Assembly: GCA_023150915.1 (NCBI GenBank)
Contig: JAKLKA010000070.1
Span: 1 to 48,237, forward strand
Direction: 5' to 3'
Source of the DNA: Polyangiaceae bacterium
GTDB taxonomy: Bacteria; Myxococcota_A; Polyangia; Polyangiales; Polyangiaceae
Length of the DNA stretch: 48,237 nucleotides
The notes below the pieces were generated by a model that was given only the letters and a program-made list of their open reading frames with translations, had not been told where the DNA came from and searched no databases. This document shows positions 4,111 to 48,237 of this stretch, one piece after another (positions within the stretch are counted from its first letter, which is position 1; each line of letters begins with the position of its first letter). The translations under genes and the position numbers were made by a program.

Positions 4111-4437
4111 ATGGCGTCTGATGTCTTCTCCGATCTCGTGGCGGCCGCGATCATCGAGGCCCAGAAGCCGCTGGTTGGCGTGCTCGAAGAGCTTCGCACC
4201 GAGCTCGCCGAAACCCGTCGCGAGCTCCAGGAGCTCCGCGAGGAGGCCAAGCCGCAACCTCACGCCGAGATCGTCTACCTCTCGCTCCCGCAGGTCGCCG
4301 AACGCCTCGGCGTTTCGCAGCGCACCGCGCGCCGCTGGCTCGACGCCGGGCGCTTGCCGCACGTTCGCCTGCCCGGCGGCGGTGTGCGCGTGAGCGTCGC
4401 TCAGCTCGAGCAAGTTCTGGGAGGGCAGGCGGCATGA
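4111..4437 (+). CDS. Excisionase-like DNA-binding protein (HTH_17/AlpA type)
   Basis: The 108-residue protein has an N-terminal amphipathic helix (about residues 1-45, with heptad-like LEELRTELAETRRELQEL) and then a winged-helix segment LSLPQVAERLGVSQRTARRW followed by LDAGRLPHVRLPGGGVRVS. The latter is the classic excisionase/helix-turn-helix 17 pattern. Such proteins bend attachment-site DNA and bias integrase towards excision. The ATG at 4111 follows GGGGAG and lies behind a good promoter. Its stop overlaps the integrase start by 4 bp (ATGA), so the two are translationally coupled. The N-terminal coiled coil is longer than in minimal Xis proteins. Confidence 0.8.
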   Translation: MASDVFSDLVAAAIIEAQKPLVGVLEELRTELAETRRELQELREEAKPQPHAEIVYLSLPQVAERLGVSQRTARRWLDAGRLPHVRLPGGGVRVSVAQLEQVLGGQAA

Positions 4438-15393: not shown

Positions 15394-16536
15394 GTGGTCA
15401 GAGCACGTCATCGCAGTGTCGTCGGTGCCGCCGTCGGGGTGGCGCTGGCGCTGGTGTGCGCGCCAGGCTTGGTGCGTGCCGAGCCCACGGCGGCCGAGGT
15501 GGCCGTGGCGCGGAAGTCGTTCGCCGAGGCCACCGAGCTCGAGAAGGCAGAGAAGTGGGTCGAGGCCGAGGCCAAGCTGCGCGAGGCGCTGGCCATCAAA
15601 GAGACGCCCGGCTTGCGCTACCACCTCGGGTATTGCCTGGAGAAGCAGGGCAAGCTGGTGGACGCGCTGGTCGAGTTGGACCGCGCGGACGAGATGCTGC
15701 GCCTGGGCGCCAAGGCGCCGGACGTGGAGAAGCTGCTCGCCTCGGCCCGCGAGCGGGTGAAGAAGAGCGTGGGCGAGGTCACGGTTCGGCTCAGCGCGAA
15801 CATCAAGGGCGCTGCGGTCGAGATCGACGGCGTGGCGGTGAAGCCGGCCCTGATCGGCAAGGGCATTCCGTTGAATCCCGGACGCCACGTGCTCACCGCG
15901 AAGAAGGCCGGGCGGATCCCGTATCGGCGCGAGCTGCAGGTCGACCCCGGTGGCAGCGTGGACGTGCTGATCTCGATGGGCGAACAGTCCGGGGGCGCGG
16001 CGACGCCGGCGGCGGGCGGGGCGGCCAGCGGGGCGGGCACCACCAACGCCGCGCCCGCGGGCAGCGACGACGGCGGCGGCTCGACGGGGAGCTCGAGCGC
16101 TAGCGCGAGCCTGAGTGACGCCGCGAAGCCGAGCTCGGCGAAGACCTGGGTGCTGATCGGCGAGGGCGTGGTCACCCTGGGGGCCCTCGGTGCCGGCATC
16201 TACTTCAACGGCAAGGCGGGCGACACCAAGGGCGAGATCGACGACGCCAGCAAGGAGCTGGAAGATCGCGGCTACGACGATACGGTGTGCAAGCCCCCGA
16301 CACCGGACAAAGCCAAGAGCGCGTGCTCGCAGCTGGCCGATCTGACCGACCAGCGCGACCGGCAGAAGAACTATGCGCTCGCGGGCTTCATCGGCGCGGG
16401 CGTGGGCGCGGTGGCGACGGTGGCGACGTTCTTCCTGTGGCAGCCGAGCTCGAAGAGCAGCGGCGCGCGTTCGGTGCGCGTGGCGCCGGTGGCGACGCAG
16501 AGCACCTTCGGGCTCGGGGTGGTCGGGCGCTTCTGA
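15394..16536 (+). CDS. TPR-PEGA protein with two C-terminal membrane segments, paralogue 2
   Basis: The 380-residue protein (GTG 15394; a TTG at 15364 would add 10 residues) has a signal peptide ending LVRAEP, a TPR-like helical part (EVAVARKSFAEATELEKAEKW, about 30-130), a PEGA-like beta domain (about 135-195, VTVRLSANIKGAAVEIDGVA) and a Ser/Gly/Ala linker. Two transmembrane segments follow (WVLIGEGVVTLGALGAGIYF and ALAGFIGAGVGAVATVATFF). The loop between them has two Cys (VCKPPTP and SACSQLADL) and ends in the GFIGAGVG motif shared with paralogue 1. It probably resides in the inner membrane facing the periplasm. Function unknown. Confidence 0.8.
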   Translation: MVRARHRSVVGAAVGVALALVCAPGLVRAEPTAAEVAVARKSFAEATELEKAEKWVEAEAKLREALAIKETPGLRYHLGYCLEKQGKLVDALVELDRADEMLRLGAKAPDVEKLLASARERVKKSVGEVTVRLSANIKGAAVEIDGVAVKPALIGKGIPLNPGRHVLTAKKAGRIPYRRELQVDPGGSVDVLISMGEQSGGAATPAAGGAASGAGTTNAAPAGSDDGGGSTGSSSASASLSDAAKPSSAKTWVLIGEGVVTLGALGAGIYFNGKAGDTKGEIDDASKELEDRGYDDTVCKPPTPDKAKSACSQLADLTDQRDRQKNYALAGFIGAGVGAVATVATFFLWQPSSKSSGARSVRVAPVATQSTFGLGVVGRF

Positions 16537-32436: not shown

Positions 32437-33198
32437 TCAGGGCGAGCGAAGAGGAGGGAAGTGCTCCACCTTCCAGTCCGGGTCTTGGGGCGGGCCGCTG
32501 CACCGGACCAGGTAGGCTTCGTTTGTCTGACATGCGGACTGGACGAGCCCGACTCGGGAGCACCCGCACCTGCACGCCGCGTCTTCGGAGCGGAAGCACA
32601 GGGGGCCCGCCCCCAGCCCAGTGCCAATTAGGAAGCACTCACGGTGCTCTCTGGTGATGTCGTACCCGCGCCGTCCGCTGCGGCAGGGTTCGGGCCAATT
32701 CGGCGCCGAGTGGGAAGCCACCCGCTCAGCAGCATCGGGTCGGTCCATCGGGTGGCGCTTGTTTACGATGTAGACATCAATCCACCCGTCGGATCGCTGC
32801 CAGGTCGTACCGTACTGGATCCCAGCCCAGTCCACGTGCGGGCCCTCGGGCCGCTCAGGAGGCCGAATGATGAACGCGATGAGGCAGGTCATTCGCCGGC
32901 ACTCCACGGCGACCAGCCGGCGATCGGGCGTGTTCTCGAAGCGCTGTTTCAGAATGTGCTCGATCCGCGGCGCCCACTCTTGGTCCAGGGGCTCTCTTTC
33001 ACGGACCAGCCGAAACCCATAGGCAATCCACTGGTCCTCCGGCTCGATGCTGGCAGGCTCCCCGACGGCTCTTACCGGGACCCCGGCGTCGGGCTTGGCA
33101 ACGAGCGGCGGCTCGATCTTCCCTGGGCGGGGATGTGGCCCGGAGCACCCGGCAGCCAGAAGGAGCGCGACCCGAGCACACCTCGGTGTCTTCATCAT
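32437..33198 (-). CDS. Cys-rich predicted lipoprotein
   Basis: The 253-residue protein begins MMKTPRCARVALLLAAGCSGPHPRP (lipobox LAAGC) at ATG 33198 or 33195. The central part (DQEWAPRIEHILKQRF ... VECRRMTCLIAFI) matches a pattern common in Myxococcota lipoproteins, with a C-R-x3-C pair and beta-rich flanks. The C-terminal 60 residues contain about eight Cys. The upstream open frame (33199-33628) runs into it in phase, without a stop, so in some repeat states the two could form one longer chain with an internal signal-like segment. Function unknown. Confidence 0.65.
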   Translation of the reverse strand: MMKTPRCARVALLLAAGCSGPHPRPGKIEPPLVAKPDAGVPVRAVGEPASIEPEDQWIAYGFRLVREREPLDQEWAPRIEHILKQRFENTPDRRLVAVECRRMTCLIAFIIRPPERPEGPHVDWAGIQYGTTWQRSDGWIDVYIVNKRHPMDRPDAAERVASHSAPNWPEPCRSGRRGYDITREHRECFLIGTGLGAGPLCFRSEDAACRCGCSRVGLVQSACQTNEAYLVRCSGPPQDPDWKVEHFPPLRSP

Positions 33199-33628
33199 CC
33201 CGCTCCGCCGTAGCACTCGGCGGACCCAGCGCTCTTGCGCGAAGGCTTGGTCGGAGCAGAGGCCGCCACCAGACACGCCTGGCAGCGGACCCTTCGTGCG
33301 AGGCAGTGAATTGAAGTAGCAGAGCTTGGACGTCGCCGACTTCGCGCACACGGCGTCAGTGAGTCCCGGCGTGCGCCCCAGCACTGCGACGGAGTCTGTC
33401 CACTGGAGCACCTGCTTGTCGCCAGCGAACGCCACCACGTTCTTGCGGCTGTCCGCGCCGAAAAGGACGGGAGATGATGTCCCGCCGCGCTGCGATGCGT
33501 CTTGCTCTCCCCCGCAAGCGATCGGGGCAGCCGCCAGCAGCGTCAGCGCGGCCGCGAACGGTCGTTGCCACGACGCAGCGCTGCGTGCTGCGTGCTGCGT
33601 GCTGCGTGCTGCGTGCTGCGTGCGTCAT
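33199..33628 (-). pseudogene. Lipoprotein N-terminal frame behind a 7-bp repeat: candidate phase-variable gene, OFF here
   Basis: An ATG at 33628 lies 6 nt behind GGAGGG and runs straight into six GCACGCA units. In the present copy number this ATG reads a frame unlike any protein (MTHAARSTQHAARSTQ...). The frame one base away encodes a good signal peptide and lipoprotein-like start, PFAAALTLLAAAPIACGGEQ, then FGADSRKNVVAFAGDKQVLQ. It has no ATG, GTG or TTG of its own upstream of the lipobox. Five or eight repeat units would join ATG and lipoprotein in frame (seven would not). In this copy the lipoprotein cannot be made from the visible start. The frame continues into the gene at 32437-33198. 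Simple gene decay is the alternative. Confidence 0.65.
33582..33623. repeat. Heptanucleotide tandem repeat, six copies (GCACGCA on the minus strand)
   Basis: Six perfect 7-bp units lie 2 bp after the ATG of the lipoprotein frame. Seven is not a multiple of three, so gain or loss of a unit changes frame. The unit is TGCGTGC on the plus strand. Confidence 0.95.
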
Positions 33629-33780
33629 CGCGAACCCTCCGCCTTCCCCCGCCCCTCGGATGGAGCTTGCCTCACGCGAGCCGCTGCCGACAAGCCGGGC
33701 CGGCCTCTCGAACGCAATTCGGTGTGAGCAGGTGCGATACGAAGTGTGTGCCCGATCCGTACGGCGACGCTGCCTCTGGA

Positions 33781-33852
33781 CTTCACCCCGGCCGTCGACT
33801 CGACTTCGCGGCGTCGCCGCGCGGCAGATCGAGCACGAAGCGCGCGCCGGTG
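33781..33852 (-). pseudogene. Histidine-kinase C-terminal fragment (duplicate of 34485-34556)
   Basis: Of these 72 bp, 69 match the end of the histidine kinase gene and encode the same TGARFVLDLPRGDAAKSSRRP. The sequence before it differs (HGLSESHD), so it is a remnant of another kinase copy or a recombined duplicate. Together with the truncated PIN gene beside it, it marks a recombination scar. The rest of 33629-33919 shows nothing recognisable. Confidence 0.75.
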
Positions 33853-34370: not shown

Positions 34371-34486
34371 GCATGAAACCTAGCTCCCTTTCGTGCTCTT
34401 GGCCACCACGCGAGGCAGAGCGAACCGGGCTCGGCTCCCTTCCGCCGCAGGATGCGTTCATGCACGGCTAGGTTCCCGCCGGAGCT

Positions 34487-36019
34487 TCACCTCGGCCGTC
34501 GGCTCGACTTTGCGGCGTCGCCGCGCGGCAGATCGAGCACGAAGCGCGCGCCGGTGGTGAATGCCTCGTCGAGGCTGATGCTGCCGCCCGCGGCCTCGAC
34601 CAGGCCGCGGCAGACCGCGAGCCCGAGGCCGGTGCCTTTGCCCACGTCCTTGGTGGTCACGAAGGGCTCGAACAGCTTGGCGCGGACCTCGGGCGCGACG
34701 CCCGGGCCGTTGTCCTCGATCTCGAGGCGCACGCCGCCGGCGTGGCCGCGCGCGCGCACGGTGATCTTGCCGCCGGGCCCGCAGGCGTCGGCCGCGTTCA
34801 GCACCAGGTTGAGCACCACCTGCACCAGGTGCTCGCGGCTCAGGCTGACCAGAGGCAGATCGGGGAAGACGTCGACCGCCAGCTCGACGTCGTGCATCGA
34901 CTTCTGGGGCGTGACCAGCGCCACCGTGTCGTAGACCGCCACCTCGACGCTGCCGGGGCTCACTTCTTCGCCCCCGGCTGACTTTCCGGGCCGCGCGAAC
35001 TGCAGCAGGTCTCGCAAGATGGCGTGGATGCGCTCGCTCTCTTTGCGCATGCGCTGCAAGAAGTCGCGCTGCTCTTCTGGTTCCAGGCCGCCCTCGAGCA
35101 GCAGGTCTTGCATGCCCATCAGGGCGGCAATGGGGTTGCCGATCTCGTGGGCCAGCCCCGCCGCCAGGCGCCCGACCGAGGCGAGGCGCTCGGAGCGCAC
35201 CAGGCGATCTTGGGCCTCGCGCAGGCGCTCGGTGGCGCGCTCCACCTCGTCCACCTTCTTGCGCAGGGACTCTTCTTCCGCCACCAGCTTGTCGGTCATG
35301 GTGCGCAGGTTCACGCCCAGCTCGGCCAGCTCGCGGGCGCCGCGCGCGGGCACCTCGAGGTGGCGCGCGCCGCCCACTACCCGCTCGGCCGCGCGCGACA
35401 GCTGATCGAGCGGGCGCACGATCAGTCGCGTGAGCGCGAAGTAGGCGGTGACCAGCAGCGCCAGAGCCACCAGCGCGGTGTACAGACCCACCAGCTTCAC
35501 CAAGGGAGCCGCGCGCGCGGACTGGTCGTCGGTGCGGACCACGGCCACCACCGCGCCGCCGGGGTCGGGCACCGTCACGGCGATGGCGCGGCCGTGGGTG
35601 GTGGTCACGTCGAACACCCGCTCGCGGGTCACGTCCACCGCCTCGCCCAGGGCGAGGGCGGCCACGGGATCCCCGAGGCGAAGCACGGGCTTGCCGGCCC
35701 GGTCATAGACGCCCACTGCCTCGACGCCCTCGGTGCCGATCTCGGACTCGAGCAACGCCGACAGCTCGGCGGCCGAGCGCTTGTTCCGGGCCTCGCCCAC
35801 GTGGCTGGCCACGGCCCGACCCAGCGAGCGGGCGCTGCTCTCACGCACTTGCTGAAGTGTCAGCCGGGTGTAGGTGGCGACCGCGAAAAACAGCGGCACG
35901 AACGCGAGCAGCATCAGCCCGCCGAGGAGCATCAAGATCTGGAGTCGGAGCCCCGGCTTCACCGCGCGCTCATTGTGGCCGATCCGCCAGGCAAAGGCGC
36001 GAATCTGGTCAGGACGCAC
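34487..36019 (-). CDS. Membrane sensor histidine kinase, NtrB-like
   Basis: From the GTG at 36019 (behind CGGAGA; a GTG at 35962 that starts nearer the first helix is an alternative) the protein has 510 residues. Its parts are a first transmembrane segment (ILMLLGGLMLLAFVPLFFAV), a periplasmic sensor of about 125 residues, a second transmembrane segment (LYTALVALALLVTAYFALT), HAMP, a coiled coil, HisKA with the phospho-acceptor H in LAAGLAHEIGNPIAAL, and HATPase_c with N-box LVLNAADAC, DNGPGVAP, LFEPFVTTK and GKGTGLGLAV. All boxes are intact. It is an orphan kinase with no response regulator next to it. Its last 72 bp are duplicated at 33781-33852. Confidence 0.9.
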   Translation of the reverse strand: MRPDQIRAFAWRIGHNERAVKPGLRLQILMLLGGLMLLAFVPLFFAVATYTRLTLQQVRESSARSLGRAVASHVGEARNKRSAAELSALLESEIGTEGVEAVGVYDRAGKPVLRLGDPVAALALGEAVDVTRERVFDVTTTHGRAIAVTVPDPGGAVVAVVRTDDQSARAAPLVKLVGLYTALVALALLVTAYFALTRLIVRPLDQLSRAAERVVGGARHLEVPARGARELAELGVNLRTMTDKLVAEEESLRKKVDEVERATERLREAQDRLVRSERLASVGRLAAGLAHEIGNPIAALMGMQDLLLEGGLEPEEQRDFLQRMRKESERIHAILRDLLQFARPGKSAGGEEVSPGSVEVAVYDTVALVTPQKSMHDVELAVDVFPDLPLVSLSREHLVQVVLNLVLNAADACGPGGKITVRARGHAGGVRLEIEDNGPGVAPEVRAKLFEPFVTTKDVGKGTGLGLAVCRGLVEAAGGSISLDEAFTTGARFVLDLPRGDAAKSSRRPR

Positions 36020-47749: not shown

Positions 47750-48237
47750 TCACGAGGGGCAGTCCCACTTCAGACCGCTGTTCCACCGACAGCGACAGAA
47801 CGAATTCGCGTACGCGCAGATCGCCCCACTGCTCGCACAGCCGCTCTCGTCGGTCGGCTTGGTGGCGGGGCAAGTCAGGCAGGACCAGTTCTGGGAGCCG
47901 CCGCCGCTGCAGCCGCACGCGTTGGTGTTGCCGGTGCCGTAGTTGCACGAATCCCCGGAGCTCGGGCACGACGGGTTGCCGGTCGGCGGATTCTGCGGGC
48001 AGGGGTTGCAGTGCCAGGTTCCGCCCCAGCACGTGCACTGGCTGCTGGTGTTGCCGGTGCCGGCGTAGTCGCACATGGCGCCCGGCGCGGAGCACGCAGA
48101 GTTGTCGGTGGGCTGCGGCGACGGGCACGTGCCCGTGCTTCCGCCCGAACCGCCGCTGCCGCCACTGCCGCCGGTGGCGCCGCCACTGCCGCCGGTGGCG
48201 CCGCCACTGCCGCCGGTAGCGCCGCCACTGCCGCCGG
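47750..48237 (-). CDS. Cys-rich secreted or lipoprotein repeat protein, 5' end outside the window
   Basis: The visible 162 residues begin in a Gly/Ser/Thr linker of GGSGGAT units and continue with three similar Cys-rich units of about 35-40 residues (for example MCDYAGTGNTSSQCTCWGGT, then SCNYGTGNTNACGCSGGG, then ICAYANSFCRCRWNSG), each with a conserved C-x-C...W-x-C pattern and CP near its end. Such units are common in extracellular proteins of Polyangia. The signal peptide is outside the window, so the lipoprotein assignment is inferred from linker style. Confidence 0.72.
   Translation of the reverse strand, partial: GGSGGATGGSGGATGGSGGATGGSGGSGGSGGSTGTCPSPQPTDNSACSAPGAMCDYAGTGNTSSQCTCWGGTWHCNPCPQNPPTGNPSCPSSGDSCNYGTGNTNACGCSGGGSQNWSCLTCPATKPTDESGCASSGAICAYANSFCRCRWNSGLKWDCPS
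48163..48237. repeat. 21-bp tandem repeats (GGSGGAT) at the right edge
   Basis: Three full units (48163-48183, 48184-48204, 48205-48225) and a partial fourth of CCACTGCCGCCGGTGGCGCC... encode the GGSGGAT linker. The array runs to the end of the window, so its true length is unknown. Confidence 0.9.

Follow-up and report, generated by a model that had tools for sequence, protein, structure and literature searches.

We identified a set of heptamer repeat arrays, placed directly behind gene starts, that very likely (a probability of roughly 85%) represents translational phase variation by repeat slippage, acting on many genes in the manner of contingency loci. The switching itself we infer; phase variation is the best account of the layout of the loci, their conservation and the precedent of neuO. 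One of the arrays lies in the window, by which we mean the whole stretch of DNA analysed (48,237 nucleotides), contig C8 of the source genome (G000; 8.0 Mb in 295 contigs). Arrays were also found in two other genomes of the same genus (G001 and G002) and in related genera (G016 and G023).

The elements at the start of the array gene in the window are as follows.

33635 to 33640, reverse strand: Shine-Dalgarno-like GGAGGG
33626 to 33628, reverse strand: ATG start codon, two nucleotides (AC) ahead of the array
33580 to 33623, reverse strand: GCACGCA heptamer array, read from the sequence; six perfect units (33623 to 33582) followed by GC
33514 to 33570, reverse strand: lipoprotein signal peptide WQRPFAAALTLLAAAPIAC, recognised by eye, whose frame the ATG misses

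TRF gives the same array interval (33580–33623) with period 7, 6.3 copies and 100% matches. A seven-base unit encodes a single peptide whichever frame is read, and the array accordingly gives the stop-free peptide HAARSTQ in each of them. The ATG codons start at positions equal to 1 modulo 3 and the lipoprotein frame at 0 modulo 3; since 7 equals 1 modulo 3, the six units present leave the two out of frame, and five or eight would join them. With six units the ATG reads a frame of 90 codons. The last in-frame stop of the lipoprotein frame is a TGA overlapping the ATG, and no ATG, GTG or TTG occurs in that frame from this stop to the end of the array, or in its first 40 codons behind the array. 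The frame is open for 380 codons and reads through the next gene. An earlier note on this DNA had described the Shine-Dalgarno sequence GGAGGG, the ATG at 33628 and the six units with the lipoprotein frame missed, all of which is correct to the base; its arithmetic of five or eight units agrees with ours, and its statements that the lipoprotein frame has no start of its own, begins with a signal peptide and runs on into the next lipoprotein gene hold as well.

A search of the source genome with a pattern of 2.6 GCACGCA units gave 59 overlapping matches, which make up nine arrays (C5, C8, C9, C22, C68, C137, C149, C177 and C199), and the reversed pattern, used as a control, gave no match in this genome. 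Chance or a local oddity was rejected on this comparison. In all nine a Shine-Dalgarno sequence, an ATG and the heptamers are followed by a frame for a secreted protein. G001 has nine such arrays (114 matches, 14 of which are accounted for by one 26-unit array read directly) and G002 has four. In the genus, an ATG precedes each of the 22 arrays by 2 to 24 nt, and 21 of them have a Shine-Dalgarno sequence of GGAG or longer, the exception being G002:C35 with AAGG at 13 nt. Matches to the GCACGCA pattern were found in 6 of 108 genomes in a family-wide search and, with a longer pattern, in 5 of 183 genomes in an order-wide one. G016 carries three GCACGCA arrays, with four-base Shine-Dalgarno sequences, and G023 carries one; each of these follows an ATG. 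Thus, in the five genomes, 26 of 26 GCACGCA arrays have an ATG no more than 26 nt away and are followed by a coding frame; heptamers of the Xanthomonas and Nostoc type, which are largely intergenic, were rejected as an identification on this ground. The sequence around the arrays is identical to that of the MAG Myxococcales bacterium NC_groundwater_781 in G002, of Polyangiaceae bacterium ACE_MYX3 in G016, and of Polyangiaceae bacterium SJ329 in G023.

The heptamer also occurs in other bacteria. A contig scan of the whole collection for four GCACGCA units found at least 115 stretches from many phyla, 80 of them listed. We tested 66 of these 80 loci for an ATG within 26 nt, a Shine-Dalgarno match of at least 4 and a frame of at least 90 codons; in the 14 dropped, every array is less than 40 nt from the start of the stretch or less than 300 nt from its end. 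Among the matches listed, all 4 of the Polyangiaceae loci had this placement, as did 3 of the 62 other loci (p = 4.9e-5); the test was set up after the pattern had been seen, the four Polyangiaceae records belong to three genomes known beforehand, and a Corallococcus and two loci titled Deltaproteobacteria are counted among the others. An ATG alone was present in 11 of the 62 other loci among the matches listed, and it is therefore the Shine-Dalgarno sequence and the frame that discriminate. Placement as a property of the heptamer itself was rejected on these figures. One of the three other loci with this placement, from a planctomycete, has the following arrangement, in which the frame begins like a signal peptide; it looks like the same design arisen independently.

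L195 (Planctomycetota MAG), about 4356 to 4404, reverse strand: ATGAAAC, seven GCACGCA units and an 844-codon frame, OFF

The relation between start codon and coding frame was compared in 29 loci, namely the 26 GCACGCA arrays, two CACGACG arrays and one octamer array. Left out were G023:C71 (L093), where the contig ends, the tetramer locus of G001, and several stretches that, by eye, do not follow a gene start, namely octamer arrays in G009 and G063, CACGACG in G043, G060, G098 and G175, and GCACGCA in G081. The offset from the ATG to the coding frame is 0 in six loci (ON), 1 in twelve and 2 in eleven, which is compatible with one third each (chi-square p = 0.34), many of the loci being paralogous and the counts thus lacking independence. 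Arrays have 2 to 31 units as assembled, counts that may be off. Paralogs with 89–96% identical flanks differ in unit number (4 and 9 in C22/C199, 7 and 6 in C5/C68, 11 and 2 in C6/C4s of G016), these being comparisons of paralogs and not of alleles of one locus. Among the 23 OFF loci, 18 have no ATG, GTG or TTG in the coding frame from the last in-frame stop up to the array; the remaining five (G000:C199, G001:C2a, C3a and C3b, and G016:C4e) have a start codon 32 to 115 nt upstream of the array, in two cases with a four-base Shine-Dalgarno match. The frames are at least 500 codons long in 20 of the 29 loci, reaching 1763, and three of the nine shorter ones stop at a contig end. These are properties expected of contingency loci: a perfect repeat, with a unit that is not a multiple of three, lies behind a Shine-Dalgarno sequence and ATG, the unit count sets the frame, all three frames occur, and paralogs with the same flanks have different counts. 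Programmed frameshifting on the repeat, whereby ribosomes would shift and the genes would always be expressed, could draw on an array that is stop-free in all three frames and on the conservation of OFF frames. However, a programmed shift goes in one direction, yet all three offsets occur in the proportions just given, and the unit counts vary; we consider frameshifting very improbable.

Other repeat units are found in the same role. CACGACG arrays, found through the reversed control pattern, lie behind ATGAGG in G023; one is in frame (12 units), one is out of frame (5 units) and one is at a contig end. We sought relatives of the array gene on G001:C2 and obtained matches in 4 of 108 genomes. 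The relative in G002 has 11.75 units of the octamer GGCACGAC directly behind its ATG, out of frame with 662 codons, a relative in G023 carries CACGACG, and that in G039 (L101) has a plain start and no repeat. A G023 relative (L103; G023:C1, about 1410–1480) has no tandem repeat and no evident in-frame start; an upstream ATG, which is out of frame, is separated from the coding frame by a run of G that may be a homopolymer switch.

A blind sample of G001, consisting of 38 evenly spaced 20 kb stretches (760 kb), contained no heptamer array, and such arrays are therefore not a general feature of that genome. The sample held four octamer and two tetramer arrays, among others. Only one of the sample arrays that were placed, a tetramer, lies behind a Shine-Dalgarno sequence and ATG with a long frame.

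L284 (G001:C3), 15995 to 16014, reverse strand: (ACGC)5 behind a Shine-Dalgarno sequence and ATGATG, GGAGGCG-ATGATGGG

This tetramer precedes a 1183-codon frame that has no start of its own and that the ATG misses by one (OFF, offset 1). The product is 45% identical to that of G002:C189 over 1210 aligned positions and 40% identical to that of G000:C177 over 821 positions, and both of these are heptamer genes. The octamer CGCAACGA or its complement was seen, in 3.5 to 4 units, in 3 of the 38 stretches of G001, at the sites below; the first of these sits just ahead of a gene.

L253, 1626 to 1656: octamer CGCAACGA
L262, 15184 to 15215: octamer CGCAACGA
L287, 19103 to 19130: octamer CGCAACGA

The leaders of the array genes have features in common. 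The promoter-like motif TTGAC-N16-20-TANNNT is located 95 to 25 nt ahead of the ATG in 13 of 26 array loci, as against none of 105 control ORFs preceded by a Shine-Dalgarno sequence (at least 150 codons) and 0.02% of 21660 windows of G001, and TTGAC alone is present in 16 of the 26 leaders as against 2 of the 105 ORFs, the pattern having been picked after the leaders were viewed and the leaders being partly related. The leader in the window does not have the full motif. The pattern GGAGG(G)TCGGCTCATG occurs at nine places in the genus, and at eight of these an array follows; at the ninth there is neither an array nor an evident gene start. Some leaders are shared between different genes: C8 and C137 have 137 nt of leader in common (89%) and no coding part, and C1b and C3a have 133 nt in common (85%) ahead of unrelated genes. 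Conversely, C8 and C9 match over 359 nt of coding part (95%), and this match does not include the 500 nt immediately upstream.

Such pairs would be expected if the array were mainly a recombination joint linking a shared promoter and start to different lipoprotein genes, with changes of frame as a by-product. However, a sequence related to the C8 leader (81% over 118 nt) lies in C9 as well, about 0.55 kb further upstream, and the difference between C8 and C9 may therefore be due to an insertion in C9 rather than a crossover at the array. A recombination joint would also leave unexplained why units of four, seven and eight bases occur at related genes and why OFF frames are maintained. It is compatible with phase variation, and as the main role of the array we think it rather unlikely. 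Both ideas could be combined, as a tentative extension that is less likely than not, in a combinatorial phasome: a portable leader (TTGAC promoter, Shine-Dalgarno sequence, ATG and repeat) would stand before many secreted proteases and surface proteins, and the array would serve both as a switch for each gene and as the point of leader exchange. If so, every cell would have its own random set of exported proteins.

Conservation of the frames behind the arrays was assessed by dN/dS. Over 12 pairs, the ratio is 0.12–0.41 in eleven and 0.67 in one distant pair, as simple Nei-Gojobori estimates that in some cases cover the first 76–120 codons only or come from saturated sites (dS up to 2.6). Seven pairs are OFF on both sides, and six of these lie within 0.12–0.41: C177/G002:C189 (0.185 over 815 codons, 0.136 over the first 595), C137/G002:C93 (0.35 over 1147 codons), C5/C68 (0.12 over 95 codons), G001:C3b/G002:C35 (0.40), G001:C1a/G000:C149 (0.40, with dS 1.8) and C6/C4s of G016 (0.41). 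The seventh, G001:C2b/G023:C72, is the distant pair. The remaining pairs have ratios of 0.13–0.31, including C22/G001:C3c (both ON) at 0.18. The large frames thus appear to be mostly under purifying selection, and OFF lineages could have been ON until recently.

Not all frames are whole. Those behind the arrays of C8, C9, G002:C152 (near codon 110), C177 (near codon 800) and G016:C4s (two breaks) are broken or cut, and that of G016:C4e (122 codons) is perhaps cut too; some of the breaks may be assembly errors. Two of the six ON loci, C9 and C152, are among those with broken frames. C9 aligns only with two end pieces of the G001:C3c protein (38% and 43% identity), in different frames. At C9 (L039), the start of the gene behind the array gene (ATGATGAAG) overlaps a TGA of a different frame, and the two genes could thereby be coupled in translation. 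The downstream gene appears intact and under selection in most of the set; the window copy is truncated, and C9, C152, C177 and C4s are not fully so.

These breaks, and the 23 OFF loci among 29, are what gene decay would produce, with the arrays as neutral microsatellites grown in the first codons of dying genes and the out-of-frame copies as pseudogenes. Against this stand the long frames in 20 of the 29 loci and the low dN/dS in 11 of 12 pairs, the promoter-like motif and Shine-Dalgarno sequence kept ahead of OFF genes, and the lack of heptamer arrays in the 760 kb of G001 together with the use of other units in the same position. Decay is an unlikely explanation for the set. The earlier note had proposed to compare copy numbers in related genomes, and had taken homologues with a normal start and no repeat, or relatives with broken downstream frames, as evidence against a switch. 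Copy numbers differ and most frames are conserved, as between paralogs and with some frames broken. A plain start without repeat was found in a relative of another array gene (L101 in G039), and broken frames in C9, G000:C177, G002:C152 and G016:C4s. These outcomes show that the repeat was added to genes whose relatives have plain starts and that some members decay; neither explains the rest of the set.

The window copy itself has the following surroundings.

33223 to 33624, reverse strand: array and N-terminal coding part, 95% identical to contig C9; the 3' side of the gene is cut
32437 to 33198, reverse strand: following lipoprotein-like gene (253 aa), which begins at an ATGATG of its own; also on C9 and C137
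33580 to 33760, reverse strand: leader including ATG and array; 92% identity to that of the C137 array gene, the coding parts being unrelated
33761 to 33852, reverse strand: duplicated 3' end of the histidine-kinase-like gene next to it (named by eye)

Compared with its 95% identical relative on C9, the window copy lacks 613 bp. Its similarity to C9 extends to 33223; from 33220 onwards the sequence corresponds to the portion of C137 in which the next gene lies, so that the coding part ends after about 120 codons and is joined to that gene, whose ATGATG start is present in all three contexts. By these comparisons the window copy is a degenerate member, with the parts of the switch intact and the target gene truncated and run into the next gene. 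If ON, about 120 residues would be fused to the next gene, and the copy has therefore probably ceased to function as a switch for its first product. The decay that the earlier note offered as a competing reading thus fits this copy, and its reading of a phase-variation switch for a lipoprotein is carried by the set (one heptamer at one place in three species, with offsets 0, 1 and 2) and weakened at the window gene by the truncation. A Pfam scan of the window proteins P0001 and P0002 found no family. The window contains two copies of the 3' end of the histidine-kinase-like gene (33761–33852 and 34464–34556, 89% identical), the outer of which adjoins the leader of the array gene; the duplicate appears to be an old rearrangement boundary, a trace of insertion or duplication. 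A 21-base tandem array (48150–48237) reaches the end of the contig.

We scanned 26 array proteins against Pfam (E ≤ 0.001), and 16 match a family. Trypsin exceeds the curated cut-off in G001:C1a, C1b and C3d, G000:C137 and C149, G002:C93 and both G016 paralogs, as do Peptidase_S8 in G001:C2a, RCC1 and NHL in G001:C3c, RCC1 in G000:C22, TSP3 in C3d, and a transglutaminase core with bacterial TSP3 in the CACGACG gene of G023. Kelch, matrixin and other TSP3 matches are below the cut-off. The predicted products of the set are thus divergent trypsin-like proteases, a subtilase, RCC1/NHL-repeat proteins and others of no known family. Signal peptides were judged at all loci by eye and with a simple lipobox pattern, which matched in 17 of 29; PIAC (window), NLGC, QLAC and others fall outside the pattern. 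Array proteins of differing N-terminal make-up (L080, L083, L075, L040, L077 and L284) have a common C-terminal stretch, at 27–34% identity (BLASTP) between the tetramer gene product and those of C1b, C3d, C137 and G002:C93; it is perhaps a surface or secretion domain. The proposal that every secreted protease has an array was rejected: among 45 trypsin matches in the genus, the 30 loci scanned are ordinary trypsin-like loci with no heptamer or octamer array, and six of the 45 are array genes, all of them outside the 30. Homopolymers of 8 were seen in three of the 30, hexamers in two, a nonamer in one and triplets in two.

By slipped-strand mispairing at replication, units would be lost and gained, and each gene would be expressed in a fraction of cells, at about one count in three. 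In the ON state (HAARSTQ)n would form the n-region of the signal peptide and be cleaved off with it. Cells would then differ in the hydrolases they export and in their surface proteins.

Most known cases of repeat-driven phase variation come from host-adapted bacteria, in which it is explained by immune escape. If a myxobacterial genus, with a MAG titled as groundwater among its three genomes, has a conserved set of such switches for secreted proteases and surface proteins, a non-immune reason would be needed; phage or predator pressure, kin recognition and the sharing of public-good hydrolases are speculative examples. In annotation, such large genes would be taken for pseudogenes or for genes lacking a start. 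The length of the arrays and the ease of sizing them make them a ready test case.

The published systems are compared here as described in the available parts of the sources. A literature search for simple-sequence-repeat phase variation in Sorangium, Myxococcota and Polyangia, with most subscription journals outside its scope, found no such tract named in myxobacteria in the text covered. Myxococcus xanthus shows yellow/tan colony phase variation, likewise a reversible heterogeneity in a myxobacterium, and the accessible portion of that report names no repeat tract (PMC4880591). The heptameric repeats of Xanthomonas and Nostoc are described as largely intergenic, and a phase-variation-like role was held unlikely by the authors (PMC4692102); they are similar in the many copies of one family per genome and, in the portion available, differ in having no tie to surface genes. 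The poly-G tract of gonococcal pilC switches the frame in the signal-peptide-encoding part of an exported protein, as would the arrays described here, although it is a homopolymer in two paralogs (PMC13190605, as excerpted). Haemophilus influenzae is reported to have a few hepta- and octanucleotide tracts, mostly in promoters (PMC2651432, in the part available). Its contingency loci, like those of other phasomes, provide several switchable surface-protein genes per genome; as far as the sources available describe them, these organisms are host-adapted and use mainly shorter units, whereas here one heptamer and, in part, leaders are shared within a myxobacterial genus.

The closest precedent is neuO of the E. 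coli K1 prophage CUS-3, where the heptanucleotide AAGACTC, encoding one heptapeptide, is located two bases behind the start; according to the accounts available, it has 2 to 93 units whose count sets the frame, and is OFF in 42 of 64 genomes (PMC3046976, PMC13001214). Identity with neuO was rejected: the unit is GCACGCA and not AAGACTC, the window proteins have no Pfam family and no polysialate O-acetyltransferase was found among them, and for the other array proteins the matches, where there are any, are to trypsin, subtilase, RCC1 and further families. In both systems a seven-base unit lies two bases behind the start codon (in the window), the frame depends on the unit count and one heptapeptide results. 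However, neuO is, as described in those accounts, a single phage-borne acetyltransferase gene in which the repeat peptide stays on the enzyme, whereas here 22 loci in three genomes carry another unit, encode secreted proteins and have the repeat ahead of the signal peptide.
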